A DNA stretch of 64,000 nucleotides, from assembly GCA_963921795.1 (NCBI GenBank), contig OY997642.1:57868021-57932020 (forward strand), given 5' to 3'. The notes under the pieces are model-generated. The model was not told where the DNA came from. It saw only the letters and a list, made by a program, of their open reading frames with translations, and did no database searches. Made by a program: the position numbers and the translations under genes. Shown here in pieces: positions 4,516 to 54,942 of the stretch (positions within the stretch are counted from its first letter, which is position 1; each line of letters starts with the position of its first letter). This DNA is from Nannobrachium achirus (taxonomy: Eukaryota; Chordata; Actinopteri; Myctophiformes; Myctophidae).

Positions 4516-5453
4516 CAGTGGTTCTCAACCTTTTCGGGCCGCCACCCCCAAAATAATCATATTTTAACTGGGGACCCCCCACCCTGATGAACACTAAGAG
4601 TTGAGGCATTACATTTTGTATAACACGATTCTATTGTGAAAATAGCCGATCTACATGCTCTCGTTGTGAGCATGTAGATCGGCTATTTTCACAATTTCTG
4701 CCTCTAATATGTGACAATATGGCCCATGTTTAACTTTTTATTTTACAGGTATTAAAAGGGTCTTAAAAGTCCTTAAATTGTCACTTTAGAAATGTGCATA
4801 TACCCTCTATAGCAGGGGTGGGCAACTTTGATGATGGAGGGGGCCACTATATTTCCACCTTCTCTCCAGAGGGCCACATTGCATATTGCTACGTTCTACT
4901 TTGTCTTTCTAGTATCTCATGCAAAAGAAGCAAAAATAGAAGATCTACAAGCTCAAAATGCGTCGCACTGCGACGCGTTTTGAGCTTGTAGATCTGCTAT
5001 TGTTGCTTCTTTTGAATTGCAAACATGAATAATTTTTGTTATTTTTTAATTGGAATCCTGAAATGTACAATTGTATTTAATTTCAAATGCATTTAGTTAA
5101 ACTCATATGAACCTAAATACAAACCCATTTTATTACTACTGTACTATACTAGTCATTATCATTAAGCTACTAAGGTAGACTGTAATTAAAACGGTTCATG
5201 TTTGCATGTTTAGAATTGTAACAGCTGAAACCAATAATATATCAGTATTCTGATATTAACCTGCAGGCCGCATTAAGTGAAGGTGGGGGCCGCATGTGGC
5301 CCCCGGGCCGCCAGTCGCCCATGTATGCTCTATAGTATACACTTAAACTTTATGTTGGTTTGTTTACTGTGGAGTGAGAAAACAATGTTTCACATTAAGC
5401 TAAACATCTGGGGACCCCCTTGGGGGTCCCGACCCACAGGTTGAGAACCGCTA
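4516..5453. mobile_element. non-autonomous hAT element, family 1, with a nested hAT inside
   Basis: Ends CAGTGGTTCTCAACC and an inverted GGTTGAGAACCGCTA, with an 8-bp duplication atctaagg at 4508-4515 and 5454-5461. Contains a palindromic hairpin at 4633-4696 and a second hAT at 4813-5327. No transposase coding. Confidence 0.85.
4813..5327. mobile_element. non-autonomous hAT element, family 2 (nested)
   Basis: Starts CAGGGGTGGGCAAC and ends with a degraded inverted copy (GTCGCCCATGTATG). The 8-bp duplication ctctatag is at 4805-4812 and 5328-5335. It sits inside the family-1 element, so it is younger. Centre carries a hairpin with arms of about 46 bp (4922-5014). Confidence 0.85.
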
Positions 5454-5624
5454 ATCTAAGGCATAGGAATCTGCAACACCATGCATTTGTGGTGACACTT
5501 AAAGCCATCATAGTAACCGATTAAAAATGTAATTAAAAGAGAAGGATGATTCACATTTGTGTGAAAAACTAAAAACTAAAACTAAAACGATAGAACTACT
5601 TCCTGTAAATGAGAATGTTCTTAC

Positions 5625-5700
5625 CTTCAGGCAAAGCATTCACAAAGTTCGGAGCGTGCACCCATATGAAAAGGAGACAGCTTCCAAATATCACATCCAT
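5625..5700 (-). CDS. signal-peptide exon of a second, neighbouring SRCR gene
   Basis: ATG at 5700, 25 codons plus one base, then GAAG|gtaaga. The peptide starts MDVIFGSCLLFIWVHAP and shares C-LLFIWV with the signal exon at 35.6 kb. It also has the same bases around the ATG and donor, so it is a paralogous first exon. It marks the start of another minus-strand gene that continues off the left edge. The first SRCR exon found after it is the partial B-type exon at 1-68; no A module was seen between. Confidence 0.75.
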
Positions 5701-5939
5701 TTTGTTTATTAATTCAGCAGCACATTGTACAAAGCTTAATTTGAAACCTTTCAATGAATGACACAGATCTGCTCGTGTCCCTCTAGTCCAGCACTGGAAA
5801 GGAATGAATTGAACAAGTGACCCCGTGGATGTTACACGTTGTATAACACAGAGGTTGTGACACATGATGATGAAGTCAGTCAGTTTGTCTGAGGGAGTGG
5901 AATCCTTCGCAAATATTAGCAATATAGCACAGCCTGTTC

Positions 5940-6460
5940 CTACTGAGGGTTCCTCTCAGCTACACAGATAGACAGCTTGATGCAGGTTACGTCGTCGTCT
6001 TTTGCAGGTAGTTCCGACGAAGCAATCTGATTGGTTGAAATGGCTATCCACCCGTGCAAATAATGACGATAACCGCACTGGTCTAATCAAATGCAAACAT
6101 ATCAGCTGTGTCAAAATCTTAATTTTTTTTAATCTAATCTACCTTTATTACAATGACATTACGTTTTTAATTTTTTTATTTTTTAAGGCCAACTGTTGCA
6201 TAATCGCAATATTACACTCGAGGGTCTCTCGGTCATGCTTTACCGTGGCTATTGCCACTTCAGGGAAGCAAAGGCTCATAGTGGCGAAATCTGGCATTAC
6301 AAAAATAAAAGATTTTATCCAATATACCTTAATTACAATGAAATGAAGTTGACAAGTTTTTTGTATAATCGCAATATTACACTTGAGGATCGTGCTTTGC
6401 CGTGACTATTGGCACTTCAGGGAAGCAAAGGCTTATAGTTAACTGTTGTTTTGGTTTTCA
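5940..6460. repeat. degenerate tandem duplication
   Basis: A segment with ataatcgcaatattacact and cacttcagggaagcaaaggc occurs at about 6195-6275 and again at 6362-6440. It is upstream of the signal exon at 5700 on the gene strand, so it lies in the likely promoter side of that gene. No promoter motif is clear. Confidence 0.5.
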
Positions 6461-6797
6461 CTCTTGTACCCATTGTATCACTGCAAATAAAAAGCAAGCA
6501 TTTGATGTATTATTTGGTTGTGAAATAATCAATGTACTTTTAACCTGACCAGGTCCTATTATGTTGTAGCCCTTTGGCGAGTGATCCAAATTAAACATGA
6601 AACTACAACGTTAACAATAACTAAAGATTACAGAGAAAGTCCTACTACAATACTACAGCTTACAATGGTGCTGCTCAATGTTATTTGATATAGTAATCAA
6701 ATTATTATGTTTTAATAGTTGTTTACTGTATATGCTTATACAGCAGATGCTGTGCCTCTCACAGGCAGAATCATCAGAAGTAACTGTGATGTCACTC

Positions 6798-6864
<67 letters not shown>

Positions 6865-7242
6865 ACGTGCGCGCATGTGTGTATGTGTATGTGCACCACA
6901 TGATTAAACAGAGAATCCCTGTTATGTCTATCATTTTCCTCTGGTAATTATTGGCAGTAAATCAATTGAACAAACAAAACGGTTTGTTAGTTTGTCATCC
7001 ATAAAAATGACGGCTCTCTTGCAAGGCCCAGGTTTAAGGTTCAAGGTGTTTATTGACACAAGCACACACACCGTACAGTTGGCACCAGCACTATACTGTA
7101 AGCAGTGACATTATACTGTACCTCACGCTCAACAGTGGGGATAACGTTCATTTTGAAAACACAGCGAGATGGAAATATAATAAAGCAGTTGTACTAATGA
7201 ACTAAATGAGAGGAGAACACAACTACGGTGTATGGTCTACAC
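6461..7242. other. no gene; (TG)n microsatellite at 6799-6860
   Basis: A GT run of about 60 bp is followed by an imperfect gcgcacgtgcgcgc stretch. Apparent frames here are repeat artefacts. The rest shows nothing I recognise. Confidence 0.7.
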
Positions 7243-7760
7243 CATACATGGGCAACTGGCGGCCCGGGGGGCCACATGCGGCCCCCACCTTCACTTAATG
7301 CGGCCCTCAGGTTAATATCGGAAAACTGTTAAATTATTGATTTCAGCTGTTGCAATTACAAACATGACCTGCTTTAATTCTGTCAGTCTAGCTTAATGAC
7401 TGGTATAGTAGTATTAAAATTTATTTTTTTATGTCCAATGTATTTGTATTTAGCTTCATGAAGTTAACATGAGTATATAACTAAATGCGTTTGAAATTGA
7501 ATCAAAATATTACATTTCAGGATTCCAATTAAAAAATAACAAAAAATTATTAAGGATTCCAATTCAAAAGAGGCAAAAAAACTGATCTACAAGCTCAAAA
7601 CGCATCGCAGCGCAATGCGTTTTGAGCTTGTAGATCTGCTATTTTTGCCTCTTTTGTATGAGATATGACAAAGTAGGACGTAGCAATCTGCATTGTGGCC
7701 CTCTGGAGTGACAGTTGGAAATATAGTGGCCCTCGCCATCATCGAAGTTGCCCACCCCTG
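7243..7760. mobile_element. non-autonomous hAT element, family 2, inverted copy
   Basis: The same element as 4813-5327 in opposite orientation: ends CATACATGGGCAAC and GTTGCCCACCCCTG, target duplication gtctacac at 7235-7242 and 7761-7768. The central hairpin is at 7565-7656. Confidence 0.85.
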
Positions 7761-7768
7761 GTCTACAC

Positions 7769-8856
7769 AGTATATAGGCCAGAGTTTAAGTGGTGAATTT
7801 AACACGCAATATGTGCTATGTAGGTTCAATTTTTCCATACATTATCAAGTGCTTCATGTGTTGTGTCAACGTTAACACATTACATTTTCTATGCATGATA
7901 TAATTTCCTGTGCTTGTAGTTTATGAGGTGCAGGTTGGGGTACATATACTGTAGCTCTGCCAACTCTCAACCCTGGGAAGAGGTGGCGATTCTGTTAACT
8001 TGTGACACCTGGTGGCAGAAAAGAGAACAGTTTAATACGTGCAAAGGAGGAAAAAAATGCAACCTTTTTGACATGAAGAGACATGTTTTTATTTTGTTGA
8101 TAGTGCCGTAAGAGGTAACATTCAGGTATGTCAGCACATCAAAATAAGATATTTCAGTCTTAACAGATTTTGATCGGATTTTGTGCATTGTGATTGTGAA
8201 TATAACAACCCTCTCTTCAGGGCAGGATCATGGGACTTAATTTAATTGACTAAAATTTAAATAGAATTTATTTGAAATCAATCCTCTCTCAATCCTCATT
8301 TGGTAAATGGTGCATTTATATAGCACATATATCCAAGGCACTTTACAAAGACTGTGCATTACATTCACACACAAATTCATACATCGATGACGGAGGAAAC
8401 CACCCTATAGTGTGCCTGTGAGTATCCTCCCCTGTGTCTATGGTTGTTACCGTTCTTCCCTATTGAGCTTGGCACATTTCCTGGGGCAAGCTGCCCAGAT
8501 CACACATGTCACACGTGTCTTCTTATTTTTTCACTCTCAAAAAGCGCCTGCAATGTCGTGCATTTTAAACTACAATGCAGTGCACATCATGGGGTGATCA
8601 CTGCGTGACTCCTGTGAATTGTTTTATTTTAAATTTTGTTTATTTTCTGTTCATTTCGTTGCTGAGTGAGGTCAGCAGACAAAGTGACGTGAGTGAGATG
8701 AAAAAACCTGGGTGAAATGTGCCGATCTCAACAGGAAACAACGGTAAATACCCCTAGTTTAGAACTACGGTAGACAGACTGACAGACAGAGATCAAATGA
8801 AAAGAGAGAAATTAGTCTTTAAATATTACTGCTGTTGAAGTCATCGTTTGTGTTAC
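7769..8856. other. no gene recognised; SINE/LINE tail near 8302-8350
   Basis: The minus strand near 8350-8302 reads as the tail common to fish SINEs and L2-like elements (agtgccttgg ... tgctatataaatgcacc). The stretch should contain the 3' exons of the large SRCR gene, but no transmembrane or cytoplasmic exon could be supported by eye. Confidence 0.5.
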
Positions 8857-35659
<26,803 letters not shown>

Positions 35660-35896
35660 TTTGTTCTTCATTCAACAGCACATCAGAGTCAGACAACAAC
35701 TTTGAAACCTTTCAATGAAAGATCTGCTTCATGTGTCCCTCCAGCACTGGACAGGGAGGGAATGAGTGAGTGACCCTGTGGACGTTACCTTACATGACAC
35801 GAGGTTGTGACACATGGTGACATCAACTGACTGGCTGAGGGAGGAAGACTGTTTCAAACACACAGGCAGGGGAGTAAATATAGGCTGTAATATGGG

Positions 35897-36181
35897 GCCT
35901 TTTCCACCGGCAAAGAACCGGTTCCAGAACCAGTGCCGGTTCAACTTTCTTGGGAACCTTGGTTCGTTCTTGGGAACCGGCTTGCGTTTCCACCAGATTG
36001 AACCAGAGCCAAGGATTTGGCTCTGGAACCACAAAAAACAAGGATTTTGTGGTTCCGGTTCCGAACCAACTTTTACGGTTCGGAACCAACTCCAGTTCTC
36101 TGTGGAAAAGCTCACCTCTGGTTCATCCCATAGGCGGGAGAAAGAACCAGAACCGGTTCTTTGCCGGTGGAAAAGGCCCCG
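35897..36181. mobile_element. palindromic MITE, 'accggttc'-rich
   Basis: Long terminal inverted repeats GGGGCCTTTTCCACCGGC and its complement, with many internal ggttccgaacc palindromes. Probable target duplication around gtaata. Second copy at about 39359-39643 in the duplicated segment. Overlapping long frames are repeat artefacts. Confidence 0.75.
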
Positions 36182-36189
36182 TAATAGAA

Positions 36190-36585
36190 CAGTGGTTCTC
36201 AACCTTTTCAGGCCGTGACCCCCAAAATAATCATATTTTAACTGGGGACCCCCCCACCCTGACGAGCACTAAGAGATGAGGCATCACATTTTGTATAACA
36301 CGGTTCTATTGTGAAAATAGCCGATCTACATGCTCACAATGCCTTGCAACGCTCGGCTGTTTTCACAATTTCTGCCTCTAATATTTTGAGAAATGTTCAA
36401 TTTTGTATTTTACAGGTATTAAAAGGGTCTTAAAAGTGTAATTTTAGAATTGTGCAGATACCCTCTATACACTTATACTGTGTGTTGGTTTGTGTACTGT
36501 TGAGTGATGAAACAATGTTTCACATTAAGCTTAACATCTGGGAACCCCCCAAAATAATTCCCGACCCACAAGTTGAGAACCACTG
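36190..36585. mobile_element. non-autonomous hAT element, family 1
   Basis: CAGTGGTTCTCAACC and GTTGAGAACCACTG ends, with taataga(a/c) on both sides. A hairpin with the palindromic core is at 36307-36370. The duplicate is at 39652-40042. Confidence 0.85.
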
Positions 36586-36890
36586 TAATAGACTACACAA
36601 AGAGTACAACTATTCATACTGATATATTTCGCACAGTAACATACAGTAACCCCACTATAATGATTAAATATAATAGAGAAAATATAAATCTTTATTTGGT
36701 ACAAATAAGGAATTGTAATTAAACTCATGTGAGCAATGACAGCAATGTATGTGAGCAATGACATACAGTATTAAAGATGTCCCTGTTTGTTGTGTACCTA
36801 TAAGACCTGACTGACCTGTGCTCCACTTCTGTTGGCCGGTGGCTTAAAGAGGTGAACATATGGGTGAACTCACTCACTTTAAAGGGCTGT

Positions 36891-37071
36891 CCATACTGTC
36901 TCCGACCACCAAACTTTTCGTTGGAAAGTTCAGACTTTCCGATGTGCAGCTTTCCAAACTCTAATTCGGGCTATTAAAAGCTTTTCAGAAGTTGCAAGTG
37001 ACGTCATGTTGTAGTTGAACCGGACCTTCCCGACGAAAAGTTTGGTGGTCGGAGACAGTATGGACAGCCCT
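36891..37071. mobile_element. 181-bp MITE with ~40-bp terminal inverted repeats
   Basis: AGGGCTGTCCATACTGTCTC at the left is matched by its complement at the right, continuing through cgaccaccaaacttttcg. Flanks are ttta/taaa, in keeping with a TTAA-like target. Duplicate at about 40320-40509. Confidence 0.75.
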
Positions 37072-37323
37072 TAAAACAGCACCCTACACTTGGCAAAGCA
37101 TTCAACTCCACTGAGAAACATAACGTATCAGTATCAAACTAGGGCCCAAATACATTGGTAACAAAGCAGTCCAATCAGTGTACAAACAAATCCCTCACCT
37201 TTATGGCAGCCCAACACAAGGAGCACAAGTATAGCTGGGGTTTCTAATAGAGCAACACTGGGGGAGATGGCAACAATAATTAACAATAATAAACAAATAA
37301 ATAATAAATAAAATGTCAAATCA

Positions 37324-38708: not shown

Positions 38709-38749
<41 letters not shown>

Positions 38750-38936: not shown

Positions 38937-40760
38937 GGTGCTGGGAGTGAAAATTATAATGTTGGGGTGCCTCGGATTAAAAAAATATTCATGGGGTGCC
39001 CTGAGACAAAAAAGTTTGTGAACCACTGCTCTAAATGAGAATGCATAAATGGTTTCTTACCTTCAGCCCTCACGGCGTTCACCCATATGAAAAGGAGACA
39101 GCAGTGCGTTATCACCTGCATTTTGTTCTTCATTCAACAGCACATCAGAGTCAGACAACAACTTTGAAACCTTTCAATGAAAGATCTGCTTCATGTGTCC
39201 CTCCAGCACTGGACAGGGAGGGAATGAGTGAGTGACCCTGTGGACGTTACCTTACATGACACGAGGTTGTGACACATGGTGACATCAACTGACTGGCTGA
39301 GGGAGGAAGACTGTTTCAAACACACAGGCAGGGGAGTAAATATAGGCTGTAATATGGGGCCTTTTCCACCGGCAAAGAACCGGTTCCAGAACCAGTGCCG
39401 GTTCAACTTTCTTGGGAACCTTGGTTCGTTCTTGGGAACCGGCTTGCGTTTCCACCAGATTGAACCAGAGCCAAGGATTTGGCTCTGGAACCACAAAAAC
39501 CAAGGATTTTGTGGTTCTGGTTCCGAACCAAGTTTTACGGTTCGGAACCAACTCCAGTTCTCGGTGGTAAAGCACACCTCTGGTTCATCCCATAGGCGGG
39601 AGAAAGAACCAGAACCGGTTCTTTGCCGGTGGAAAAGGCCCCGTAATAGAACAGTGGTTCTCAACCTTTTCAGGCCGTGACCCCCAAAATAATCATATTT
39701 TAACTGGGGACCCGGCACCCTGACGAGCACTAAGAGATGAGGCATTCCATTTTGTATAACACGGTTCTATTGTGAAAATAGCCGATCTACATGCTCACAA
39801 CGCCTTGCAACGCTCGGCTGTTTTCACAATTTCTGCCTCTAATATTTTGAGAAATGTTCAATTTTGTATTTTACAGGTATTAAACGGGTCTTAAAAGTGT
39901 CATTTTAAAATTGTGCAGATACCCTCTATACACTTATACTGTGTGTTGGTTTACTGTTGAGTGATGAAACAATGTTTCACATTAATCTTAACATCTGGGA
40001 ACCCCCCAAAATAATTCCCGACCAACAAGTTGAGAACCACTGTAATAGACTACACAAAGAGTACAACTATTCATACTGATATATTTCGCACAGTAACATA
40101 CAGTAACCCTGCTATAATGATTAAATATAATAGAGAAAATATAAATCTTTATTTGGTACAAATAAGGAATTAATTAAACTCACACATAGGTGAGCAATGA
40201 CATACAGTATTAAAGACGTCCCTGTTTGTTGTGTACCTAAGACCTGACTGACCTGTGCTCCACTACTGTTGGCCGGTGGCTTAAAGAGGTGAACATATGG
40301 GTGAACTCACTCTCTTTAAAGGGCTGTCCATACTGTCTCCGACCACCGAACTTTTCGGTTGGAAAGTTCATACTTTCCGACGTGCAGCTTTCCAAACTCT
40401 AATTCGGGCTATTAAATGCTTTTCAGAAGTTGCAAGTGACGTCATTTTGTAGTTGAACGGGACCTTTCCAACGAAAAGTTTGGTGGTCGGAGACAGCATG
40501 GACAGCCCTTAAAACAGCACCCTACACTTGGCAAAGCATTCAACTCCACTGAGCAACAAAACGTATCATGATCAAACTAGGGCCCAATACATTGGTAACA
40601 AAGCAGTCCAATCAGTGTACAAACGAATCCCTCACCTTTATGGCAGCCCAACACAAGGAGCACAAGTACAGCTGGGGTTTCTAATAGAGCAACACTGGGG
40701 GAGATGGCAACAATAATTAACAATAATAAACAGATAAATAATAAACAAAATGTCAAATCA
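38937..40760. repeat. segmental tandem duplication, copy 2
   Basis: About 1,824 bp, direct repeat of 35475-37323, including the second signal-peptide exon. It starts within what was the hAT family-3 element and ends at the shared gtcaaatca. Confidence 0.9.
39061..39121 (-). CDS. exon 1 of the SRCR gene: duplicated signal-peptide exon (distal copy)
   Basis: The same 61 bases, ATG, 20 codons and phase-1 donor as at 35599-35659, inside the second copy of a 1.85-kb direct duplication. Because the gene runs right to left, this copy is the more distal first exon. Splicing from here straight to A1 would give the same protein, so it could be an alternative promoter/exon pair. It may equally be an unused by-product of the duplication. 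Confidence 0.6.
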
Positions 40761-41262: not shown

Positions 41263-41270
41263 GTGCCAAC

Positions 41271-42720
41271 CAGGGACGTGCTGGCCATTGGGAAAAGCGG
41301 GACAACTCCCGAACGTCCGGTTCATTCCAGGCCGGCCATTAGGAAAAATAAAAAAAATTAAATGTCGGCCCTCGTTCCATTTTGGGGTCTGGGCGGCCAA
41401 CAAAGTTTCAAATTTATAATTTTTTTTCGCAAAGCAAAGCCCTTCTTCATCATACAAGGCCGTTGCACAAAAGTAGTGAAAACAGCAGATCTACAAGCAC
41501 ACAACGCCTCGCGGTGCGAGGCGTTGTGTGCTTGTAGATCGGCTGTTTTAACTAGTTAAGTGTGCCTGCCATGCAATGGCAAAACACTTATTGTAATCCG
41601 CCATACTTATATAGTTAGTTAGACTTCCCGCAAATTTCGGCACGTAATAACTGCCGCACGATTTACGCCACCCCCGCAATATATACATCAAAACGTGCGG
41701 CTCGGCCGGGAATGTGCTATTACTTTTCTTTCCGATCCGCGTTACCATGGCGACGTGATTCGTAAAAAACTACGCCCAAAAACCCCATAGACTTTGAATG
41801 GAGGACTCGAAAAAAAAAAAACAGAAACTTTGGCGCCACATAACTCTGCCATACTTTTGCCTAGCAATGTCATTTAAACTTTAAAATGCACACACAACTT
41901 TGGTCTTTTTCCGGCCAATAGAGATGAGCTGTAATTGATTAAGCCCCGCCCCCTCTGTATTCCTATTGGCTGGGCTTTAAACAGCCATAACTCCAGTTCA
42001 CAGCATGGTACCGTCTTGAAACTTGGTGTCTGGACTTGAATGGCCAATAGGGACTTATTACTTAAGCCCCGCCCCTCTTAAGCCCCGCCCTAACTTCCTA
42101 TTGGCTGAGCTTTAAACAGCTATATCTCCAGACTCCAGTTTGCAGCATGGTAGGGACTTGAAACTTGGCGTGAGTATTAAGATGGCCAATAGGAATGATC
42201 TGTAATTGTTTAAGCCCCGCCCCCTGCCTTCCTATTGCCTGGGCTTTAAACAGCCATAACTCCACTTCCCAACACGTTACTGGTCTCAAACTCGTTGGGT
42301 GGTTCCACAGTCCCAACGGCTAACTGCTAATGCTAACTGCTACTTTCGCTAATGCTAAGCTAAAAATGCTAATGCTAACAAATGCTAATGCTAACACCAA
42401 CTGCTATACAAGGTTGCACACACTTAGCGAGCTGCAGGCACACTTAAAATTTCTTAGAAATTTTCTTTTCTAGTTTAAATCATTTTTAAAATGATAAATA
42501 CAAAACAAACGGGTTTGGACATACAAGGTTTCCACCCGACAACGACGAAATATAACTCATGTACAGTAATTGGCCCACTGGCTTGTCACTTGTCATGATC
42601 CGAAATGGCAAATCTTTGAGTAGCAGCAGCGCTATAGAGAGAGATCTCTCTCTATAGCGCGCAATGAGGGCCTCTCCAACTCTTTTTCCCGGGCTGAATC
42701 AGGGGCCCAGCACGTCCCTG
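41271..42720. mobile_element. 1.45-kb hAT-like element
   Basis: Ends CAGGGACGTGCTGG and CCAGCACGTCCCTG. Perfect 8-bp duplication gtgccaac at 41263-41270 and 42721-42728. The interior has a long hairpin with the palindromic core (41471-41556), several degenerate blocks of ccataactcca/taagccccgcccc (41930-42260), and a 26-bp palindrome of agagagatctctct type near 42632-42657. No transposase. Confidence 0.85.
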
Positions 42721-42728
42721 GTGCCAAC

Positions 42729-43109
42729 TCGCGCCTTGTGCACTCGTGGCTATCTATGGCCTACTTGAGTGCCAGCAGAGCTCGCAAGTACTGTGTTCTG
42801 TGTATCAACCACGTATCTGTCTGCTCAGTGTTATTTATATCAGATCGCACTTGTTGATGGTGGCTTCACCATGAATGCTGGTCCCCAATTGGATAAGGGC
42901 GTAAACACAAACAGAACTGATCATTTCAATGCAAGTTTCTCAGTGGTGTTTGATGCACCCGGAAGAAGCAGAATCCAGGTGCATTGTGGGGGAACTGGAT
43001 CATCTGGAGCAGGCGCCACTGGTAAACAGTAGCCTTAGCAGTTGGCATACGCACGCGCAGTAGCGTTTAACTGCACTCCCAGGTTTGACCACTAGGTTAA
43101 GGCTGGTTC
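42729..43109. other. no gene recognised
   Basis: An open frame of 87 codons at 42769 has no recognisable domain. I do not call it. Confidence 0.5.
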
Positions 43110-44192: not shown

Positions 44193-44363
44193 CAGTCGTA
44201 CGCAAAGTGAGGTCCAGGGACTCTCTGGGTTCCTTTTGAGAGGTCTAAATTTACCCTTACAAGTATGTAAAAAATTAAACCAAATGGAGGGTCCATTTGG
44301 TTGCATTTGTGAATTGTCAAGGTTAAGGGGAGACCATGACAATTTAACGTTTGAGAACTACTG
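44193..44363. mobile_element. 171-bp hAT MITE
   Basis: Starts CAGTCGTACGCAAAGTG and ends CGTTTGAGAACTACTG. 8-bp duplication atttagac at 44185-44192 and 44364-44371. Nested in the larger hAT. Confidence 0.8.
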
Positions 44364-45099
44364 ATTTAGACCAAAATGCAGGTTTAAATGAATTCTGCAA
44401 TGAATCTCTGTATTAAAGATGCAGTGCCATGATTTATTTCCCCCCAAAACATGATTATCAGGTATTATGATTATATTAGGAGGAAGATTATTATTATTTT
44501 TTTTAAGAGTGTACAGAAAGAGTTAAAATTTGTTTTTTATCTGGCCACACCCACCAGTCATTAAGTATGCCTGGTTGTCAGGTGGGTGGTGACCCAGCTG
44601 AAGTTAGCCACACCCACAGTGTTGGGTGAATGGTAAAAGGGGAGGGGATGATTATATGATGTCATTTACTGACTGTTTTTTGATTGGCACTTTTGACCCA
44701 CAATGGTGTCAGCCTCCAGGAAGAAATACAAAATACAAAGGAATACATAATTGCTCCACACCAGGGGGTCTAATAAAGTACTGTCAACCTCATAGTCACA
44801 TGAAAACCAGAAAAAGAACAAAACTATGGCACCGCCTCTTTAACAATTCAACAGGATTTGTTTCATACGGCACCCTTGTTGTATCACAATATATATATGT
44901 GTCCCAATTTGGCCAAGAGCCAGTCATCTCGGGAAGTGTCATTATTCCCTACAGCCTATATGACGTTTTTTTTTTTTTTCTCTAAAAAGATAATGCCACA
45001 ACAGCATCTCATAATATCTAGGCTACATTTCACTTAAACGCCAGAGCTTAACTCTGCATGTAAATAAGACTTTTTTTAATTAATGTGAGAGATCGGTAC

Positions 45100-46140
45100 A
45101 TAATTCTGTTAGTCCTCCCAGTTGATATTAGCTAAAATGCTAACTAGCCAGCCTTTGTTAGCCGTTTGTAGCCAAATGCGGTAATATCGGGACTCCATTA
45201 CTTTGCGATGCAACCCACAGTATTTATCCCATTAATTTAATGCCACGTGTGTTCCAAATGAACAATTATTAACCACGTAATGTTGTTATAATGATTTAGT
45301 GTATTATTTTATTTATTATTCTTCCGTCGTTCACTTCCGCTGTTTCTTCTTCTATGCGGGTGAAAATGATCCGTTCCTGCCTGGAGGCGTCTGTGACGTA
45401 TGCGTTTGTCTTCCGTGAAGCCTTCCTTTGTCACTGAGTTAGCTTAGCATTGAATAGAAAAGTGTCGTCGTAAACTATCTAGTTCTAACGTTCTAACGTT
45501 TTGGACAATAAATTGACAGCCAAGAAAACATGGATGGAATGCAATCGTTCACTCGCCGTCGGAAAGTTGACTTTAGAGTAGACCATTCTGGATGAATGGC
45601 TATGAGTGGCTAACGGCTAACGCTAGCTAGCGTTAGCTAGCGCTAGCTGCAGGCTAACGCAGGCATCGTATAAACAAATAAAACGTGACCCAACTCTGTT
45701 GCTCTTCTACAAGCTCACAACGCGAGGCGGTTAAGCCTGTAGATTGTGTTTTATTATCAGGTCAGATTATCCTTCTGACTGAAGTCACACAAACACTCAT
45801 GTAACATGAAGCACTGAGTTAGCTTAGTTAGATGACCAATTTCGATAGGGCACAAGTTCTGGTGTTGCATACGTATATAGAAGCGCATTCCCACAGAGCA
45901 ACGTGGGACTGGGTGCCCTATAGAATGTTGTGTCACTTCCGGTAGCAATTAGCATAGCTACAGTTATCTATTGTTAGATGTTAGATGTATAACAACATTA
46001 CGTGGTTAATAATTGTTCATTTGGAACACACGTGACATTGAATGAACGGGATAAATACTGTGGTTTGCATCGCTAAGTAATGGAGTTCCGATATTACCGC
46101 ATTTGGCTACAAAGGGCTACAGTTACGAAATAATTCACAC
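45100..46140. repeat. foldback element, arms ~190 bp
   Basis: 45130-45300 (ccaaatgcggtaatatcgg through ccacgtaatgttgttat) is repeated inverted at about 45990-46130 (ataacaacattacgtgg through ccgatattaccgcatttgg). The interior includes a gctagcgttagctagcgctagc palindrome near 45620-45645 and a degraded palindromic core near 45698-45748. Confidence 0.7.
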
Positions 46141-46794
46141 AGTACAAGGAACAAAGGATTACATTTGGGCATTATGAGAGAGATAGAATAGTAGTTTTAA
46201 TACTGAGGATAGAACGCCTCGTTTATTGATATACCAGTGGTGGAAAAAATAGCCGATTGAGCTTGTAGATCTGCTATTTTCAAATTACCAAGGTATAAAA
46301 TAGGGCTAAAGTGGTCCGTGCATGTTTTATAATATTATAATTTATATCTGCAAAGTAATTAGTAACTAAAGTTTTCAAAAATTGTAGTGGAGTAAAAGTA
46401 CAATATTTGGAACCGAGATGTAGTGGAGTAGAAGTAAAAGTATTGGAAATTGGATTTACTAAAGTAAAGTAGAAATAGCCAAGTTCTCTAAGTTAGAGTG
46501 TATGTAAACGTTTGTGTTCTCATGCCAATAAAGCTTTTTGAATTGAATTGTGCCTCTCTACTTCCCCATGTGGCGGAGTCACGTCATTGCAGGTTAGAAT
46601 TATATTTAAAAGGTAAATATCTCAGAAGCAGTATTTTAGCATGGCATCCTTCTATAAGCCATATCTTCAAAACTGTTGGGTCAATCTCCACAACCAATAT
46701 ATCATTTTTTAGCTATGATCCCCAGCTTTCAAATGAAATGAAAAAACGGAAATGAATAAAAATCCAATGACTAGCCGCCAGTGAGATTGGGACA

Positions 46795-47257
46795 CATATG
46801 TCACGTTTTATTTTTTTCCGTTTCAGTGAAATTGAGAACAGGAGCGCTTGTCGTGCAGCACGGGGCGGAACAAGCTGTCGCTTTGATCCACAACAACGTC
46901 AACGTAGCGTCGGCAGGAATGATAGCGCCTCACCCCACAGGGGTTAGTGTTAGGCATAGTTTTACAGAGGTTAAGGTTAGGGTTAGAGTTAGGCATAGTA
47001 AGCTAATGGCTAAACAGAGCCGAGCTGGGCGAGTAGATAAACAACGAAAGAGGTGTCACAGACGAGTGACGTCAGCGACTGCACAAGTGAATGGCTGTTG
47101 TCGCCATCTCATGGTGAATACGCAGAATTACACTGGTGCGCTGATAAGAGACTATCAAGGTGAATTGATCCAGGTGGTGTTAGGGGTGTGTGGTGAACTG
47201 CAAAACGAGCGCTCTTACCCCAATCTCACAGAGTTACCCAAACTGACTGTAACATAT
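46795..47257. mobile_element. second copy of the TTAGGG-bearing DNA transposon
   Basis: Shares cggcaggaatgatagcgcctcacccc, the TTAGGG-like stretch (about 46965-46995) and the gagttacccaa...tgtaacatata end with 29969-30376. Confidence 0.65.
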
Positions 47258-47540
47258 ACAGTATTTTCCGGACTATAAGGCGCACTGGATTATAAGGCGC
47301 ACTGTCAATGAATGGTCTATTTTCGAACTGTTTTCACATATAAGGCGCACCGGACTATAAGGCGCACATAATAGACGCTACCATTGCGTTATGCATCCAA
47401 CAGATGGAGCTGTGCTAAAGGGAATGTCAATGTCAAGGAATGATCCATGTATAAGGCGCACTGGACTATAAGGCGCACTGTAGTTTTTTTGAGAAGATTA
47501 AAGGCTTTTAAGTGTGCCTTATAGTCCGGAAAATACGGTA
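47257..47540. mobile_element. 284-bp DNA transposon with TTTTCCGGACTATAAGG ends
   Basis: The terminal inverted repeats TAC(A/C)GTATTTTCCGGACTATAAGGC are about 28 bp. The motif gactataaggcgcac is repeated five to six times inside in both orientations. Common vertebrate non-autonomous type; superfamily not assigned. Confidence 0.75.
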
Positions 47541-47763
47541 TACGATATCTCTGAAAAGGCACATCGTGGTGACACTGTATCGTCTCAACCATAATTTATC
47601 ACCATATCGCCCATCCCTACCTCAGCCTCTCCTGGTGTTTGCAGGAGCTCCTCCTCCCATTCCTCGCCAACCTGTGGGGTCTCTGCTGGTTCCTCCCGGG
47701 CCAGACTGGAGTTCCTCTCCGGCTGTTCAGGGGAAACCTCCTCCTTACACACAGCCAGGAAGA

Positions 47764-48296
47764 CTAAGGGGAAAAAAAAAACATGAAGTAAGAGAGAAGC
47801 GTTTAACGTTGGGACATACATTTTCTTTTTCTCAGACAAAAGCTAAAGCTAAGCTGCTGGCTATTAGGGATGTTAAGATGGGTCGAAGGTCGATTCTTTG
47901 ATTTGTTGCTCCTGTCGAAATCGAAAATGTATCATTAATTATTTGGATTACCCAAAAAATTATAATAATGACATGTTCAAAATAAATGTATGATAAATGT
48001 TAATGTTTTTCAAAATTGCCATTTAAAAATGTAAAAACACTAGAGGGTCGCGGCCCTTCGGGCCGCTCACATCTAGTTAAAAAAATAAATAAAAAAATAA
48101 TAAATAAAAAAGTTTAAAAAAAAAAAGTTAAAAAAAAAAAAAAAGTTTAAAAAAAAAAAAAAAAAAAAAAAGTTTAAAAAAAAAAAATGTTTTGGGGGGG
48201 AACTATTGTGGCGGAACTATTGTGCCGCACCACGTTTCCGGTCGGACATATTTGACCGCCGGACGCACTTCTCGGAGGGGCTGCGCTCTCTAGGGG

Positions 48297-48331
<35 letters not shown>

Positions 48332-49376
48332 CTGCCTACGACCCCCTCGGTTGAAATTGGATCCGCCGGTCCCATAGCTGGGAATACGAGCAAATCACCG
48401 GTCACCATGGCAACGGGGGGCCAATGATAGAGTTATGGGCGGTATTCCTTACCACTACCACGACTACCTATGCGACTACCTATGAGTTGGAGTGGATGTA
48501 AAGGGGGCGTGAACGGCCATGGAAGTGGGATGCGGCAATAGGAGGAATGTAATAATAGATATAAATGTTTTCCAAATGGGAGAGGAGCTGCACACGACCG
48601 TGTGCGTGCTGAGTTGTTATGTTTATGTCGTACTTGGGCATGCTTGAAAGCCAGCTTGCAAATGTCAGCTTCACATAGGAGTGCAGTGTGGGATGATTTT
48701 TAGCTATTCAAAAATAGCAGATTTACAAGCTCGCAGCACGGCTTGTAGATCTGCTATGTTTGTAAATCTTTGAATATATATATTTTTTCAAAGCAAACTT
48801 TTGTAACTCAAATCTTCTGCTCTCAAATCAGCAAGTGCCATGTTTTTATTTTCTAGATAGTCAGTGTTTCGACATATTTCGATTGTCAGGACATTGTTAT
48901 AACAATCATTAGACTCAGAGCAATAACCCAGCTATCTCCCAGACTCCCTATACCCAGTCAAAGTTCAGATTTTAACCCATTCTGGACGGGTACACATTAA
49001 AGTGTATTACCCCCCCAGGCCGGGAACACTTTTTAGTGTATTACAGTATGTACAGTATGTAGTACAGTAATTTTTGAAAAAGATATTTTAAGTGTTTCAG
49101 ATTGTTTTCTATGAAAGCCAAAGGTGTAAGGCTATCAAATAGTTTTGGAATGTTGTTTCTAACTGCTACAGAGGCTGAGTAATACGTTTTCCAGAAAAAC
49201 GGTGGGTAATTTTCAAATCGGACTTATGGCTTCATTCAAATCGGATTTAGGCCTAAATGGGTAATGAATGTAGAAGAATTGTGTGCATGATGTTGCTGTA
49301 AATTAGGTGACTTAATTGAACTGACCACATTTAACACACAAATCAAGAATCAAGGCGTGCTGTTCAACGTACATCG
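47764..49376. other. no gene; A-rich repeat, (GT)n, palindromic core copy
   Basis: A-rich runs at 48080-48190, (TG)n at 48298-48330 and a palindromic-core hairpin at 48709-48762. Possibly upstream sequence of the zinc-finger gene, but no exon is recognisable. Confidence 0.5.
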
Positions 49377-49805
49377 TCACCAACCTGGATCCTGGGGAGC
49401 GGCGAGGTGAGCGGAGGAGACGGAGGCCGCGACGACCGACCGGGCCTCGGCGAGCGCCAGCTGTCTCCGCTGCAGCTCCAGTTTCTCCCTCTTGACGCTC
49501 AGCATCTCCCGCTGCAGGGCGTTGGAGCGCTGGAGGTGGGCCTCGATCCTCCGCAGCACCGCCAGCTTCTCCCTCTCGGAGGCCACCAGGGCGGCGCTGC
49601 AGGTGCAGCGCGCCAGCGAGGGCCTGGTGCGGGGGGCCCTGGTGGGGCGACGCGGCAGCGGTGGAGCGCTGTCCGGATCCGGCATGCTGCCATTGCAGCC
49701 GGGGACCGGGGAGGCGGACCGCGCTGCCGAGGCCCAGCTCGCTGACGGTTGTTCGTGGTCGCCTTGCCGCTCTGCCGCGGCCCCATTCGCGGGTGACCCT
49801 TCTTG
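49377..49805 (-). CDS. Myb/SANT-like gene, exon 4 (coiled coil and stop)
   Basis: Open frame from the hAT junction to TGA at 49377-49379. EGSPANGAAAERQGD leads into a Pro/Ala-rich linker and a heptad-like helix (EREKLAVLRRIEAHLQ ... VKREKLELQRRQLALAEA). GC-rich, with other open frames on both strands that are shadows. This frame is shifted relative to exon 3 if the hAT is removed precisely. Confidence 0.6.
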   Translation of the reverse strand, partial: QEGSPANGAAAERQGDHEQPSASWASAARSASPVPGCNGSMPDPDSAPPLPRRPTRAPRTRPSLARCTCSAALVASEREKLAVLRRIEAHLQRSNALQREMLSVKREKLELQRRQLALAEARSVVAASVSSAHLAAPQDPGW

Positions 49806-52800
49806 TAGGGCTGTCACGATATGACATTTTACATGACGATTAATTGTCACTCAAATGATTGCGATTAACGATTTAATTGTGTTTTTGTCGTTGATAATTA
49901 CATTTCTGTTTGGCTTGTAGGCTTTGAAGTTGCACATGGCAGATATGACACATAACCTAAATATACAAAGAAATTACTGACATATTTGACAACTTTCTAC
50001 TTAAAAAATAACATTGGTAGTTGAAATAGCCGATCTACAAGCTCACAACGTGTCGCATCGTGACGCGTTGTGAGCATGTAGATCTGCTATTTCCACTCTT
50101 TCTGAAAATGTTTATCAAAGTATGAAAATTTTTCAACATTCACGATTTTGACGATTATTACAAAATATTTTGCGATTATGTCAAATAATTACGATTAGAC
50201 GATTATGTAATAATTGTGACAGCCCTACCTTCTTGGTCGTCCGCTGAGAGCCCCGCCCCATCTCCCCCAACATGTCTATCCCACCGTTGACCCACGCGAC
50301 CGTTGCGTCGCCGACGATGGCGATGACCCTCTCCTCGTCGGCGGTGAGGCAGGTCTTGTCCGGTTCACCGCTGCTGCCGCCAGCGGCCCGGCCCCTGATG
50401 TTCGCCGCCTTTATTCTCGTGAGGCTGGCCAAGTCCTGCCACTTCTTCCTGACGCCCTTCCAGTGGCGCAGGCCGCAGGGACTGGAGGGGGCCATGGCCC
50501 TGGCGATGGCCTGGGGCCGAAGAAGATATTATATTATCATGATTGATTATTGCGACCGTAGGTCGCATTTACTACCAAAACCTCCACGGGCTGTCTGTGA
50601 GTGAGTCAGTCAGTCACACTTTTGCCCTGCTCATATCTCCACAACCGTTGCCCCCATCCATGCCTAATTTTGCACACACACTCCTTGACTGCCAAACTAC
50701 AACCTCCAAGGACCCCCGGAGCCCCAGGGACCCCCAGGTCCCTGGGGGACCCCCAGATGTAAAAAATGACCAAATGTGATCACACGTCACACGTCACACT
50801 TTTTCCCTGCTTATATCTCCGCACCCGGTGACCCGATCCATGCCAGATTTTACACACACACTCCTTGCCTGCACACATTTTACACACACACTCTACAACC
50901 TCCAAGGACCCCCGGAGCCCCAGGGACCCCCAGATGTAAAAAATGACCAAATGTGCAAAAATGACCAAATGACCACCCCAACGGGGCTGCTCACGGGGAA
51001 TTCCCGGGGACCACCGGCTCCTGGTGCTCCAGAAGGGATGCAAAAGTGGTGGCCCCCCCAGTGGAGGACCCCCTGCCACTGCAGCGCACATAAAATGCCG
51101 TAACTCGGGCTAGGAGCGTCCGGGAGAGCCGGGGCCGGTAGCTATTCGTCCGCCAAGGCAACGCGGAGACCCCACCCCTCATTTCTCACATGGCCCTATT
51201 CTAGCGCCACCTTCAGGCCGATTTTTAAAACACATTTTTGGACACTGCTCCTACAGTTTTTGCCCTAAAATCACGAATATCACTACACAGCACGTCTACA
51301 CTCATGTCATCAACATGGATCAGGAAGATTTGGGAAAAACACATTTTTGCCCTATTTGTGGAGATAAGCCACCTACGGTCGCTTATCTCCCGATTAGGGA
51401 GTCTTACTGGTAGGGGTGGGCGATATGGTGATAATTATCGTTGAGACGATACAATGTCTCCATGATATGCCTTTTCAGAGGTATCGTATATATCGTGATA
51501 CAATTGAGGGAGCCTTGTAAAAAGTCCTGTTTAATCGTTAATACAGAGATTCATTGCAGAATTCAATTAAACCTGCATTTTGGTCAAAATCATCAGCTCG
51601 AACTTTAAAATGTCAAGGTCTCTAACTCTGACTCAAATGAAACCAAATGGACCATTTGGTTTCATTTGTATACTGTCAGAGTTACATACTTGTAAAGTTC
51701 ACGTTAGACCTCGCAAAAGGAACCCAGAGAGTCTAGTATTGTCAAGTAATTTGAAAAAATAACCATAAAAACCAACGTGAAAAAGAATCGTGATAAAATC
51801 GTGTATCGTGATACAGCTGGGGAAAATATTGTGATATTGTATTTTTCCATATCGCCCACCCCTAATTGATTATGTGTGACGTTAATAACAGTAGATATTA
51901 TATTAGCACGATTGATTATGTGTGACGTTGGTAACTGTAGATTATGCCGTATCATACATTAAAGATTACATGATGTACTGTAAGAGTCAAGATGTCTTTC
52001 CTAGGTCTGATAGATATTGTTAAGGCACAGCTTGTCCTTGTAATGCCAGTATAACTATGGTCTGATTTCCTTTGCTTAGAGCAGAATCACTGTACCACAG
52101 GCCTGTGGTACTCCTATGTACACAATCACCTGTACAGTCATTGTATGAAACCTCCACCACCACCTTATGTTTTTACCTCTGACACTTCTTTATTTATAGT
52201 GCGAGGCGTTAAGGGGAGCAAATGCAATTTTTGTACAAATTTGTCTTAAAGCGCCACATTTTGCACAGATGTAGCCCAGGGCATGCTCTGATGATTTAGC
52301 TAGGGCGCCAGAGTTTGCGACCTTCGGGGTCGCCACAGCGGCCAAGTCAAGTTGGGCTCCCATCGACTTTCTATACAGGAGGAAAATACCCAGAAATGGC
52401 CCACAAAACTGTGATTAGTGATGAAAAGTGATCGTTTTCTGGGGCCATTTGTAGCCCAAGGAATGTTTTTTTGTGCAAAACAAATGCTTGCAATGGATTC
52501 AGCATCATGACAAACTCCTAGTTAGACCCCTCACATCCTACTTAAATACCCCCCCCAAAAAAAGTTTTTCTGGGTATTTTCCTCCTGTATAGAAAGTCGA
52601 TGGGAGCCCAACTTGACTTGGCTGCTGTGGCGACCCCGAAGGTCGCAAACTCGGGCGCCCTAGCTAAATCATTAGAGCATGCCCTGGGCTACATCTGTGC
52701 AAAATTTGGCGCTTTAAGACAAATTTTTACAAAATTAGCATTTGCTCCCCTTAACCCCCCGCACTATTATGTCTTGTTGACAGAACTTGAGTTCCACCAC

Positions 52801-54248
52801 CACACCTGCCACAGGCAGCTCTTGGTGTCGGTGGCCTTCTTTCCATTGGTGCTGCCAAACAGGACGGCCCGGTGCTGGTGCACATGCTCCAGGAGGACGG
52901 CCACTTCGTGCCGAGTGAACGATGCCGACCGCGACCGCTTGGCCCGAGCCTTCTTGGTGTGACCCAGGCGTGGAATTTCCCAGTCTGCATTTAAAACAGT
53001 TAAACATTGAATGCTGTTATTTTGGTAATTATTTGGCTATAGAGTGCCTAACCTTATTCCTAACCTTAACGTCAGTAAAATGGTGCCAAAACCCTATTCC
53101 CAATCTTAACCTCAGAAAGATATGCATAATCCTAAAGTTGTATATAAAACAAATACAAGAATAAAAATCTCGGCGAGTATGTTTTCCGGCGATGCTACCG
53201 GTTACCCTGTGAGCTTGTAGATCGGCTATTTAAAAGCTTAAAACGTGTCCTCCGGTCAGGGGTGTCGCACCAAATTCTGGGTCACTGTGGGCCCCCATGA
53301 ATGTTCTTCATAGGGGGAGGGGGTTTAACCCATTTAGACAGGGATCACATTATTATGCATTGTTTTGTGCTTTAACTATTGAAAAATAATATTTCAAATC
53401 CTTCTACGGTATTTTGAAAAACCTATGTTTCTATGTCAGTGGTGCTCAAACGTTTTCATGTGAAGGACCCCCAAAATGATGTGTATTTGGCCACGGGTGC
53501 TAAAAAACATACATAATATTCAAAGATTTGCACACATTTTCACGACTTTTCAAAAATAGCAGATCTACAAGCTCGCAGCGCGGCACCGAGCTTGCATAGC
53601 TGCTATTTTTCATAGTATATAACAGGGGTCTTCAACAGGGGTCCGGGACCCCTAGGGGGTCCTCAGAGTTACTGTAGGGGGTCCTCCAAATCTTTGTGTG
53701 ATAGAAACCTTTTTTTTCTCTCCTTTTTTATATTAACCACTTGAACCCTAGCGTCCAAATTATGAGAACTTTAGCCAAAAATAGCAGATCTACAAGCTTG
53801 TAGATTGGCTATTTTTGGCAAAGAGGTTTGGTGTAGAGGAGAAAAAGAGCAGACTAAGTACATGTGAAAGGTCAAGTTTATTAAGTATTGACGGTTCAAG
53901 TGGTTAAATATCTGAAAACACACATTGACATGAATACAAAATACACTGATGATTGTGCTGTCAAACGATGAAACTATATGGAGTCTATGAACAGGTTGTG
54001 GGGGTCCCTGCTTCATCTCTCTCTCAACTAATAGACCCCCCTGGTATAGGCTATAATATAGGCCCCTCCACCTTGGCTTGGGCCCTAGTGAACTCAGTCC
54101 CACATTTCCCCCCCCTTGTGACGCCCCTGCCTCCGGTTAACTTACTTGCCACAGCAGCAGCAGCATCATGTCCAGAGTAATCCTCTCCCACCGGCGCCAC
54201 GTGTTCATCTGGTGACTCTACTTTCACTGTGTGTTTTATATGAGACAT
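49377..54248 (-). CDS. Myb/SANT-like DNA-binding protein gene (NAIF1-like), four exons listed separately
   Basis: Minus strand, exons 54146-54248, 52806-52984, 50229-50510 and 49377-49805. The first three join cleanly (phases 1 and 0). They give MSHIKHTVKVESPDEHV, then RSRSASFTRHEVAVLLEHV, HRAVLFGSTNGKKATDTK, WKGVRKKWQDLASLTRIKA and a linker. The C-terminal exon holds a charged helix (SEREKLAVLRRIEAHLQR, KREKLELQRRQLALAEARS) and ends QDPGW-stop. This order (trihelix-like Myb domain, linker, C-terminal coiled coil) is that of NAIF1 and related proteins derived from the Myb partner of Harbinger transposons; such proteins bind DNA in the nucleus. A 422-bp hAT lies exactly between exons 3 and 4, and the two sides are not in the same frame after simple removal. 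It may be inactive or spliced in an unusual way. Confidence 0.65.
49806..50227. mobile_element. 422-bp non-autonomous hAT in coding sequence
   Basis: Ends TAGGGCTGTCACGATATG and TTGTGACAGCCCTA, perfect 8-bp duplication ccttcttg at 49798-49805 and 50228-50235. Carries a palindromic-core hairpin at 50021-50094. Sits at the exon 3/exon 4 junction of the Myb/SANT-like gene. Confidence 0.9.
50229..50510 (-). CDS. Myb/SANT-like gene, exon 3
   Basis: 282 bp, 94 codons, phase 0 at both ends. Acceptor ttcggccccag. Reads AIARAMAPSSPCGLRHW, KGVRKKWQDLASLTRIKA (third helix of the domain), then a Gly/Ser linker and EERVIAIVGDATVAW. The apparent donor AAGAAG|gtaggg is formed by the target duplication plus the first bases of the hAT element. 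Confidence 0.75.
50511..51410. repeat. tandemly repeated, CCCAGGGACCCCC-rich segment
   Basis: The block atctccgcaacc ... ccatccatgcc ... acacacactcctt ... ccaaggacccccggagcc occurs at about 50635-50775 and again at 50810-50945. The following stretch contains ccgtaactcgggctagg. Apparent ORFs have no domain. It lies in intron 2. Confidence 0.5.
51411..51864. mobile_element. 454-bp non-autonomous hAT, compact relative of 44011-47619
   Basis: Ends TAGGGGTGGGCGATATGG and CCATATCGCCCACCCCTA. Inside is a short hairpin (aaatggaccatttggttt). No convincing 8-bp duplication was seen. Confidence 0.75.
52209..52754. mobile_element. foldback element, arms 188 bp, TTAA at both ends
   Basis: Left arm 52209-52396 and right arm 52567-52754 are near-perfect inverted copies (TTAAGGGGAGCAAATGC outermost). 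The loop (about 52440-52545) matches the arms of the foldback at 9489-10139. TTAA ends are a piggyBac hallmark, but the terminal bases are not diagnostic. Confidence 0.8.
52806..52984 (-). CDS. Myb/SANT-like gene, exon 2 (first part of DNA-binding domain)
   Basis: 179 bp. Acceptor ttaaatgcag|AC, donor CTGTGGCAG|gtgtgg. Reads NWEIPRLGHTKKARAKRS, SASFTRHEVAVLLEHVHQ, HRAVLFGSTNGKKATDTK, CLWQ. The basic stretch KKARAKRSRS could be a nuclear signal. A foldback element ends 52 bp past the donor. Confidence 0.75.
53257..54129. mobile_element. 873-bp hAT-like element in intron 1 of the Myb/SANT-like gene
   Basis: Ends CAGGGGTGTCGCACC and GTGACGCCCCTG. Perfect 8-bp duplication cctccggt at 53249-53256 and 54130-54137. 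It contains further hAT-like pieces (53436 cagtggtgctcaaac; 53624 caggggtcttcaac) and two palindromic-core hairpins (53549-53611, 53774-53819). Confidence 0.85.
54146..54248 (-). CDS. Myb/SANT-like gene, exon 1
   Basis: ATG at 54248; 34 codons plus one base reading MSHIKHTVKVESPDEHV, then a run of alanines (AAAAVA). Donor GCAA|gtaagt in phase 1. Intron 1 carries an 873-bp hAT element beginning 9 bp past the donor. Confidence 0.7.
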
Positions 54249-54446
54249 GTTTTATCCACTGCTCCACGCTCTCCATGGAGACGTTGTAAACAACAACAAC
54301 ATGTTACACTTACTTCCGGGTCAACGTAATTCGCGCGTGCGCAATGAAGGGGCCGAGGCACCGTTGCCTTTAGCCCATCGCCCCCTGGTGGACGAGGTGT
54401 GTAACTGTCGCTGAAACAGATGGATGGATGGATGGATGGATGGATG

Positions 54447-54942
54447 GATCAGCAGTGGAAAAAAAGTACCCAAATGTTTTACTTCATTGTAAAAGTATCA
54501 ATACTGCAATGTAAAAGACCAGAATTCAAAATGTACTTAAAATATACAAAAGTATATTGGCATTACAATGTAGGCTACGTAAAAGCAGGCCTACTCATTA
54601 TGCAGAATGTCAACATTTCTAGTTTTCAAAATATAAAAATCTTTTGAAAATAGCAGATCTACAACCTTGCGACGCATTGCGAGCTTGTGGATTGGCTATG
54701 TTCAAATGTCCGAAATGTTATTGTTTTTATTTATTTTATTTATAGTAGCCTAATAATAATCAAAATCTACAAAGTAACTAGTAACTAAAGATAAATGTAA
54801 AAGTACAATCTTTGGATCCAAGATGTAGTTGAGTAGCAGTAAAAGTATTGGAAATTGGAAATACTCAAGTAAAGTACAAATACCTCGGAATTGTACAGTA
54901 CTTAATTAAATGTATTGTATTTAGTAACGTTACACCACTGGA
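54447..54942. mobile_element. MITE with 'gtggaaaaagtac' end
   Basis: Left end CAGCAGTGGAAAAAAAGTACC, right end TTACACCACTGG, flanked by ggatggat-type repeats that may be the target. Palindromic-core hairpin at 54643-54706. A partial relative is at 46232-46490. Confidence 0.6.

Follow-up and report, generated by a model that had tools for sequence, protein, structure and literature searches.

A window of 64,000 nucleotides from the teleost Nannobrachium achirus (the whole stretch analysed, on contig OY997642.1) contains one palindromic hairpin many times over, mostly inside hAT-like transposons whose ends differ. Is this hairpin a small foldback element that inserts itself into hAT elements, or a part which those elements inherit and pass between them? 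We think it probable, though well short of certain, that it is an ancient internal cassette of single origin belonging to non-autonomous, mostly hAT-like transposons, inherited with its hosts and occasionally exchanged between them, with hairpin-templated correction preserving the palindrome and deletions removing it. This reading draws on the constant position of the hairpin in the families tested, the variety of its hosts, one case of an interior shared between families, concerted arms, and decay by deletion in the host family that we denote F2.

An earlier note on this DNA had placed the palindromic core at about 16 positions. Lengthened from that core, the hairpin arm reads TGAAAATAGCMGATCTACAAGCTC, and arm scoring, shuffled sequence and a covariance model together bear out a hairpin or a recognisable remnant at 16 of 16 places. 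Twenty-five arms in the window score at least 19/24, whereas the maximum in five Markov shuffles (320 kb) was 18. The covariance model, trained on ten hairpins, detects 14 of the 16 places, missing the one-arm places at 34804 and 53213; its weak sites are 45698-45748 (E 0.009) and 46241-46283 (E 0.04), and it finds no extra window site with E <0.9 and no match in 60 kb of bacterial DNA. RNA folding of the ten two-arm hairpins gives about 20 to 43 stem pairs, energies as low as -66 kcal/mol, and z-scores between -5.5 and -14.9. The 16 places are not all separate events, however, since those at 36307 and 39769 represent a single one that was copied by a segmental duplication (35475-37323 and 38937-40760, 96% identity). 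Ten of the 16 sites lie inside elements bounded by target-site duplications (TSDs), although such elements make up only 9.75% of the window (P=3.6e-7, or P=2.3e-6 after dropping the segmental duplicate).

The count of sixteen is real, but it is a small corner of what the window's own assembly (1.659 Gb, 564 contigs) holds. Exact matches there to the 13-nt core GATCTACAAGCTC total 295,224 (147,921 forward, 147,303 reverse), compared with 1 + 1 for the reversed control. Complete hairpins, defined as both arms within 2-32 nt of each other with two known variants permitted, number 81,674 (control, 0). In a systematic sample of 18 10-kb stretches (170,553 readable bases) we counted 97 arms at 71 loci, among them loci with a single arm. 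Scaled to the whole assembly, this corresponds to about 690,000 loci, with a range of 0.50-0.89 million when the stretches are bootstrapped. In one stretch that was picked for its cluster of matches (L017, about 4825-5000), hairpins are chained head to tail with a unit of about 43 bp and the junction GCTTGTAGATCTACAAGC.

The recognised hosts appear, judging by their ends, to be mostly non-autonomous hAT-like elements, with terminal inverted repeats (TIRs) that begin CA/TAG. An F1 element (CAGTGGTTCTCAACC; 4516..5453, forward strand, with the TSD ATCTAAGG on both sides) carries a hairpin with a perfect 28-bp stem at 4633..4695, and nested within it is an F2 element (CAGGGGTGGGCAAC; 4813..5327, forward, TSD CTCTATAG) whose own hairpin, identified by folding, lies at 4922..5014. 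A second F2 element occupies 7244..7760 on the reverse strand (TSD GTCTACAC), its hairpin, in reverse orientation, likewise folding at 7565..7656. A degraded F1 copy retains a left arm, with a central deletion, at 34804..34826 (forward, score 19/24). Folding also supports the hairpins of the F3 element (CAGGGGTTTTCAAAG; 35050..35566, forward, TSD CTCTAAAT; hairpin 35309..35390), the F4 element (CAGGGACGTGCTGG; 41271..42720, forward, TSD GTGCCAAC; hairpin 41471..41556) and the F5 element (TAGGGCTGTCACG; 49806..50227, forward, TSD CCTTCTTG; hairpin 50021..50095). Between the F3 and F4 elements lie an F1 element at 36190..36585 (forward, TSD 7/8), whose hairpin at 36307..36370 has a damaged right arm and was recognised by the covariance model, and its segmental duplicate at 39652..40042 (forward; hairpin 39769..39832). 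The F4 element is interrupted at 41556-42447 by a TTAA-bounded insert with 14-bp ends TTAAGTGTGCCTGC, which abuts the edge of the hairpin.

The remaining window sites are less complete or more closely packed. The decayed hairpin at 45698..45748 is flanked by long inverted repeats (45159-45290/45988-46119); a half hairpin in a truncated F6 element (CAGTGGTGGAAAA) at 46241..46283 has a right arm scoring 24/24; and the hairpin at 48709..48762 sits in a fragment that has a 26-nt flank in common with F8. A lone arm at 53211..53236 (reverse, score 22/24) has no recognised host. The earlier note had counted a CAGGGGTGTCGCACC element among the hosts, but elements nested inside it seem to house the hairpins at 53549 and 53774. 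This region is the F7 element (53257..54129, forward, TSD CCTCCGGT), in which F8 and F9 elements seem to be nested and no hairpin of its own was seen. The F8 element (CAGTGGTGCTCAAACG; left end at 53437, right end not found) has its hairpin at 53549..53611, and the F9 element (CAGGGGTCTTCAAC; 53623..54043, forward, with a target duplication of 5/8 only at this copy) has a short hairpin at 53774..53819 within a TTAACCACTTGAACC-bounded segment. We considered 53733-53907 as a non-hAT (TTAA) host and rejected it, since the segment recurs in other F9 copies and is therefore not counted as an independent host. An F6 element at 54453..54940 (forward, left end approximate), where a microsatellite obscures the target duplication, has a folding hairpin at 54643..54706.

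We then scanned the window, together with 20 fetched stretches, mechanically for CAG/TAG inverted repeats flanked by exact 8-bp duplications. This gave 16 elements, compared with 1 in reversed sequences. Ten of the 16 hold an arm scoring 18/24 or better, and six do not; the ten include F7, where the hairpins seem to be those of nested elements. Exact 8-bp TSDs flank the hosts F1a, F2a, F2b, F3, F4 and F5 as well as those at L020, L021, L027, L030, L032 and L036. Nine hairpin-bearing end types have exact duplications (CAGTGGTTCTCAAC, CAGGGGTGGGCAAC, CAGGGGTTTTCAAA, CAGGGACGTGCTGG, TAGGGCTGTCACRA, TAGGRATGGGACRA, CAGGGGTCRGCAAC, CAGTGTTGWTTTYG and CAGGKACGTGCASA), and a tenth, CAGGGGTCTTCAAC, has one of 7/8. 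Because some end types are alike (CAGGGACGTGC.., CAGGGGT..GCAAC), the nine may be fewer independent families. Among 102 hairpin loci (from the window, the 20 stretches and a further 8 loci extracted at pattern matches), 29 are bracketed by inverted repeats with a duplication, and some of these brackets are spurious or extend too far.

Are these hosts related by anything other than the hairpin? The earlier note held that they share little else, and for most pairs this is so: with the hairpin excised, 85 of 91 host pairs do not exceed 40 shuffles, and F5 aligned with no other host. The other six pairs give better alignments than any of the 40 shuffles, against a chance expectation of about two pairs. 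Three of the six are clear, namely F1-F8 (ends), F3-F4 (interior) and F8-F11 (26 nt), and three are marginal (F2-F4, F2-F6 and F11-F7). With one copy per family aligned, the hosts thus did not turn out to be members of one hAT family. The claim goes too far in two cases: the element ends at 4516 and 53437 resemble each other, F1 and F8 having alignable ends and a hairpin that lies some 112-117 bp from the left end in each, and the CAGGGGTTTTCAAAG and CAGGGACGTGCTGG elements have about 250 bp of common interior.

The second case includes a third family. F3, a clean F4 copy (L027:6641-7198) and L021:658-1105 have perfect and different TSDs (CTCTAAAT, ATCCCTAC and GTCTATAC, respectively). Their interiors (210-260 bp) are alike at 84-92%, but nothing is alignable at their ends. 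The hairpin lies in the middle of this interior, with one arm only in L021. Three families having one interior under unrelated ends means that exchange is visible there. We looked for a target duplication around the common block and saw none. That the hairpin is a part acquired by exchange is therefore directly supported for three families, and its fixed placement in the tested families agrees with this; its being a functional part, as the earlier note also proposed, is a conjecture.

Hairpins of this type are also read through by 11 predicted peptides in public protein collections, ten from ENA contigs and one from a merc set. P0122 and P0124 have the F3 left flank on both sides, which makes a longer palindrome. 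The flanks are in normal left-right order in P0121, P0126 and P0129, and match on one side only in P0123, P0125, P0128 and, weakly, P0130. In P0127 and P0131 the left flanks match no tested host and the right flanks are too short for testing.

Within families, the hairpin keeps its place. Clustering of 142 flanks gave 24 clusters and 47 singletons (L010-L012 were excluded as tandem copies of L009), and flank pairs were consistent within families (six loci of F9 type, four of F1 type, three of F2 type, and others). All copies in a 288-kb sample with flanks at most 150 bp apart have at least one arm at the site. Nine of 70 left-flank rows are without a nearby arm, and in none of those 9 is the right flank adjacent. 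One F8 flank seemed to have several partners, but by eye these begin in the same way and are more plausibly deletion variants.

We asked whether empty sites exist among further copies in the assembly. The joined flanks of F2 matched 53 pieces (the best 40 of 600 candidates were scored), and 19 F2 copies were compared: 2 are full, 7 have lost the centre while keeping both outer stems, 5 have lost one arm, and 5 are armless, with five different junctions among the 5. Because 16 of the 19 are all of the rows that span the joined flanks, deletions are over-represented in these numbers. We read the F2 copies as a deletion series, with loss in and around the hairpin centre. One of the seven centre-lost copies, L042, has CAAAAGTTTTG at the F2 site. 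In the young L031 family the flanks match at 97-100% (best 40 of 889 first-look candidates scored), and the gap between them is 67 bp in 35 of the 40 scored copies, 66 bp in 1 and 58 bp in 4. L031's own 67-bp gap is the hairpin; judged by gap length, none of the 40 copies is empty. The flanks of L017:558 are a low-copy repeat found mostly near contig ends, and all four copies that were read retain the hairpin in whole or in part. The comparison of copies with and without the hairpin that the earlier note had proposed thus gave no convincing empty site in either F2 or L031. By eye, no constant target duplication is present at the hairpin edges, and the flanks are palindromic past the common core in a family-specific manner.

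The two arms of a hairpin change together. Across ten hairpins, arms match their own partner at 211/240 as against a mean of 193.6 for swapped partners, with 0 of 20,000 permutations as good; P is 0.0008 with one hairpin per family (7) and 0.003 for the 8 bases outside the core. Among 60 hairpins of length 53 (53 of them distinct) out of 100 listed, 59 carry matching arm variants and one is mixed. Inner stems vary between families yet pair, at 550 of 636 pairs compared with at most 510 in 5000 permutations. At arm position 11 (A or C), 20 of 44 paired hairpins have a mismatch, in 16 cases A against C, which may reflect an ancestral asymmetry or a kept bulge. The next most mismatched positions are 1, at the outer edge (19), and 15 (14); at least some of the mismatches at position 15 come from F8-type copies that carry GATATAC in one of their arms.

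How might exchange and correction come about? A strand copying or repairing the element would stall at the hairpin and then switch template. If it switched to another element, through gap repair or fork stalling and template switching, the result would be exchange between families; if it switched to the other arm, by snap-back copying, the result would be arm correction and sometimes a longer palindrome. The host would be moved by whichever hAT transposase recognises its ends, and the hairpin would be amplified along with it to several hundred thousand loci. Better amplification, small-RNA production and escape from silencing are conceivable benefits to the host. A more far-reaching version, which we put forward only tentatively, is that the hairpin is a portable selfish module below the level of the transposon. 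It would not jump alone, but would help the non-autonomous elements that acquire it to multiply and be handed on by template switching, so that some 75 bp would have reached about 0.7 million places via many transposases.

If the hairpin travels with non-autonomous elements, are there coding relatives that carry it? We scored 150 matches to PF05699 (hAT transposase) in the assembly, none of which is linked to a host family, and read seven transposase loci with open frames of 337-666 aa over 3.9-4.0 kb each. A complete hairpin was found inside the transposase element at 0 of the 7 loci, at which element ends were mostly not determined, so the cassette looks, in this small sample, like a property of non-autonomous elements. 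A hairpin near the 479-aa transposase of L060 was rejected as part of it, as it sits in a neighbouring F4-type miniature inverted-repeat transposable element (MITE). Agreement among the four sister copies ends about 470-495 bp after the domain, short of the hairpins of L060 and L063; L064 and L065 have no hairpin in 1.3 kb. Separately, a short open frame of 64 aa (L031:6891-7085), just upstream of the hairpin in the very young, high-copy L031 family, has no Pfam match.

Several observations weigh against an inherited and exchanged cassette. In most families the supposed result of exchange is seen, not exchange itself, and the common block of F3, F4 and L021 is itself bounded by imperfect inverted repeats (82-85%, 35-37 bp) and may thus be a former transposon or have arrived as one. 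The 73 of 102 loci not bracketed as hAT-like are nested, truncated or of unknown kind, so that the description of hosts as mostly hAT is drawn from the bracketed loci. The genome-wide flank results come from four flank sets only (F2, L028, L017 and L031). L042 may be a site that was never filled, not one that suffered a deletion. The 56-bp hairpin at L028:6226-6281 has flanks of 93 nt and 37 nt that match nowhere else in the assembly, in a search that skips very common words and that diverged copies could escape; it therefore seems to stand alone in single-copy DNA, with only GC..GC, a 2-bp repeat, at its edges. Of three candidates for such solo copies, L028 was the one with unique flanks, the other two lying within repeats. 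This copy may have arisen by a genuine but rare insertion or as filler where a break was repaired, or may be all that is left of a very old host, and it fits self-mobility or filler repair better than it fits a cassette. Finally, L057 has a single arm upstream of its transposase frame, and the seven transposase loci may belong to unrelated families.

The solo copy and L042 are among the points that favour a micro-foldback of 55-95 bp inserting by itself with a preference for hAT MITEs, as are the recurrence of the same core across many hosts and the placement of 10 of the 16 window sites in TSD-bounded elements. Such an element, which the earlier note had offered as one of its two explanations, seems to us improbable nonetheless. 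The searches gave no convincing empty site and, by eye, no common edge duplication, the palindromic extensions past the core differ by family, none of the 40 scored copies of the young L031 family is empty, and the five armless F2 copies have five different junctions. Plain common descent would instead make all hosts one hAT family whose ends and interiors diverged past recognition while the hairpin alone stayed alike. The hAT-like character of the bracketed hosts (CAG/TAG ends and 8-bp TSDs) and the alignable ends and similar hairpin distance of F1 and F8 are consistent with this, but F3, F4 and L021, with like interiors and unrelated ends, are the reverse of what slow divergence would give. 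Only 6 of the 91 hairpin-excised pairs beat all 40 shuffles, three of them by little, and F5 matches none; we accordingly give common descent by itself little credence.

A further possibility, and an unlikely one in our view, is that the hairpin is a functional RNA or protein-binding module under selection, its stem feeding Dicer/Drosha or binding a host factor that aids spread. The long and stable stems, the inner stems that differ by family yet pair, and the frequent A against C mismatch at position 11 would all suit a selected structure. Correction at the DNA level explains the pairing equally well, however, and no Rfam family reaches its gathering score: the hairpin matches no curated family or microRNA precursor there, the best match having 54.8 of the 140 bits required. 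The internal cassette, inherited and occasionally exchanged, is our preferred reading.

Is such a hairpin known elsewhere? Foldback elements and mitochondrial mobile hairpins (GC clusters, RHEs) are said to be short or long palindromes that occur in many places and to be self-mobile, unlike the hairpin here, which is carried by larger elements. Angel was reportedly described by Izsvak et al. (1999) as a palindromic fish MITE. According to the portion of the source available, the medaka hAT element Tol2 contains an internal Angel element (PMC8151067). It resembles our case in being a bony-fish hAT element with an inverted-repeat element in its interior, and differs in being one autonomous element rather than many MITE families. 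Atlantic cod has the palindromic hAT MITEs gadMor-hAT-1784/8043 (PMC12368964), which are likewise teleost, non-autonomous and rich in internal inverted repeats; they are two subfamilies of one family with repeat units of 167-169 bp, and the accessible part of that paper reports no hairpin that crosses families. Template switching (gap filling, FoSTeST) is described, in the part of PMC8277862 at hand, as placing foreign interiors between TIRs, those of hAT elements included, to give Pack-TIRs. This is like the exchange proposed here, but what is captured there is host gene sequence, mostly single copy, and not a recurrent hairpin.

Three DNA patterns had no match in viral contigs, and of 46 stretches in viral contigs matched by a protein-alignment pattern none was confirmed. 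Eight exact 19-mer matches in bacterial genome contigs had no second arm within 80 nt and were taken as chance. Text searches for the core strings in DNA and RNA letters returned no transposon paper by title. Fish hAT elements with internal palindromes are thus known already, but we saw no description of one hairpin common to many hAT families in the open literature searched, with Repbase, Dfam and subscription papers lying outside that search.

The role of internal parts in MITE success is a question already raised by internal palindromes such as that of Tol2. If the cassette helps its carriers, that success would depend on an exchangeable internal part too, and not on end sequences alone. 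Hairpin-bearing and hairpin-damaged copies of the same family coexist, which makes any effect on amplification, silencing and deletion measurable in one genome, and together they form a natural series for the correction and deletion of long palindromes in a vertebrate.

The window has other features apart from the hairpin. Exons resembling those of SRCR scavenger receptors, a family name taken from the reading frames, are repeated many times between 8800 and 34300. Palindromic stretches without the hairpin core lie at 9503-10113 and 22959-23069, the latter with sub-threshold microRNA matches in Rfam. At 55977-58583 there is a 1.2-kb direct duplication with 99.6% identity. Lastly, 60701-62947 encodes an ABCB7-like mitochondrial transporter, 84% identical to Centroberyx proteins, in an uninterrupted frame of 748 aa, and is therefore probably an intronless retrocopy.

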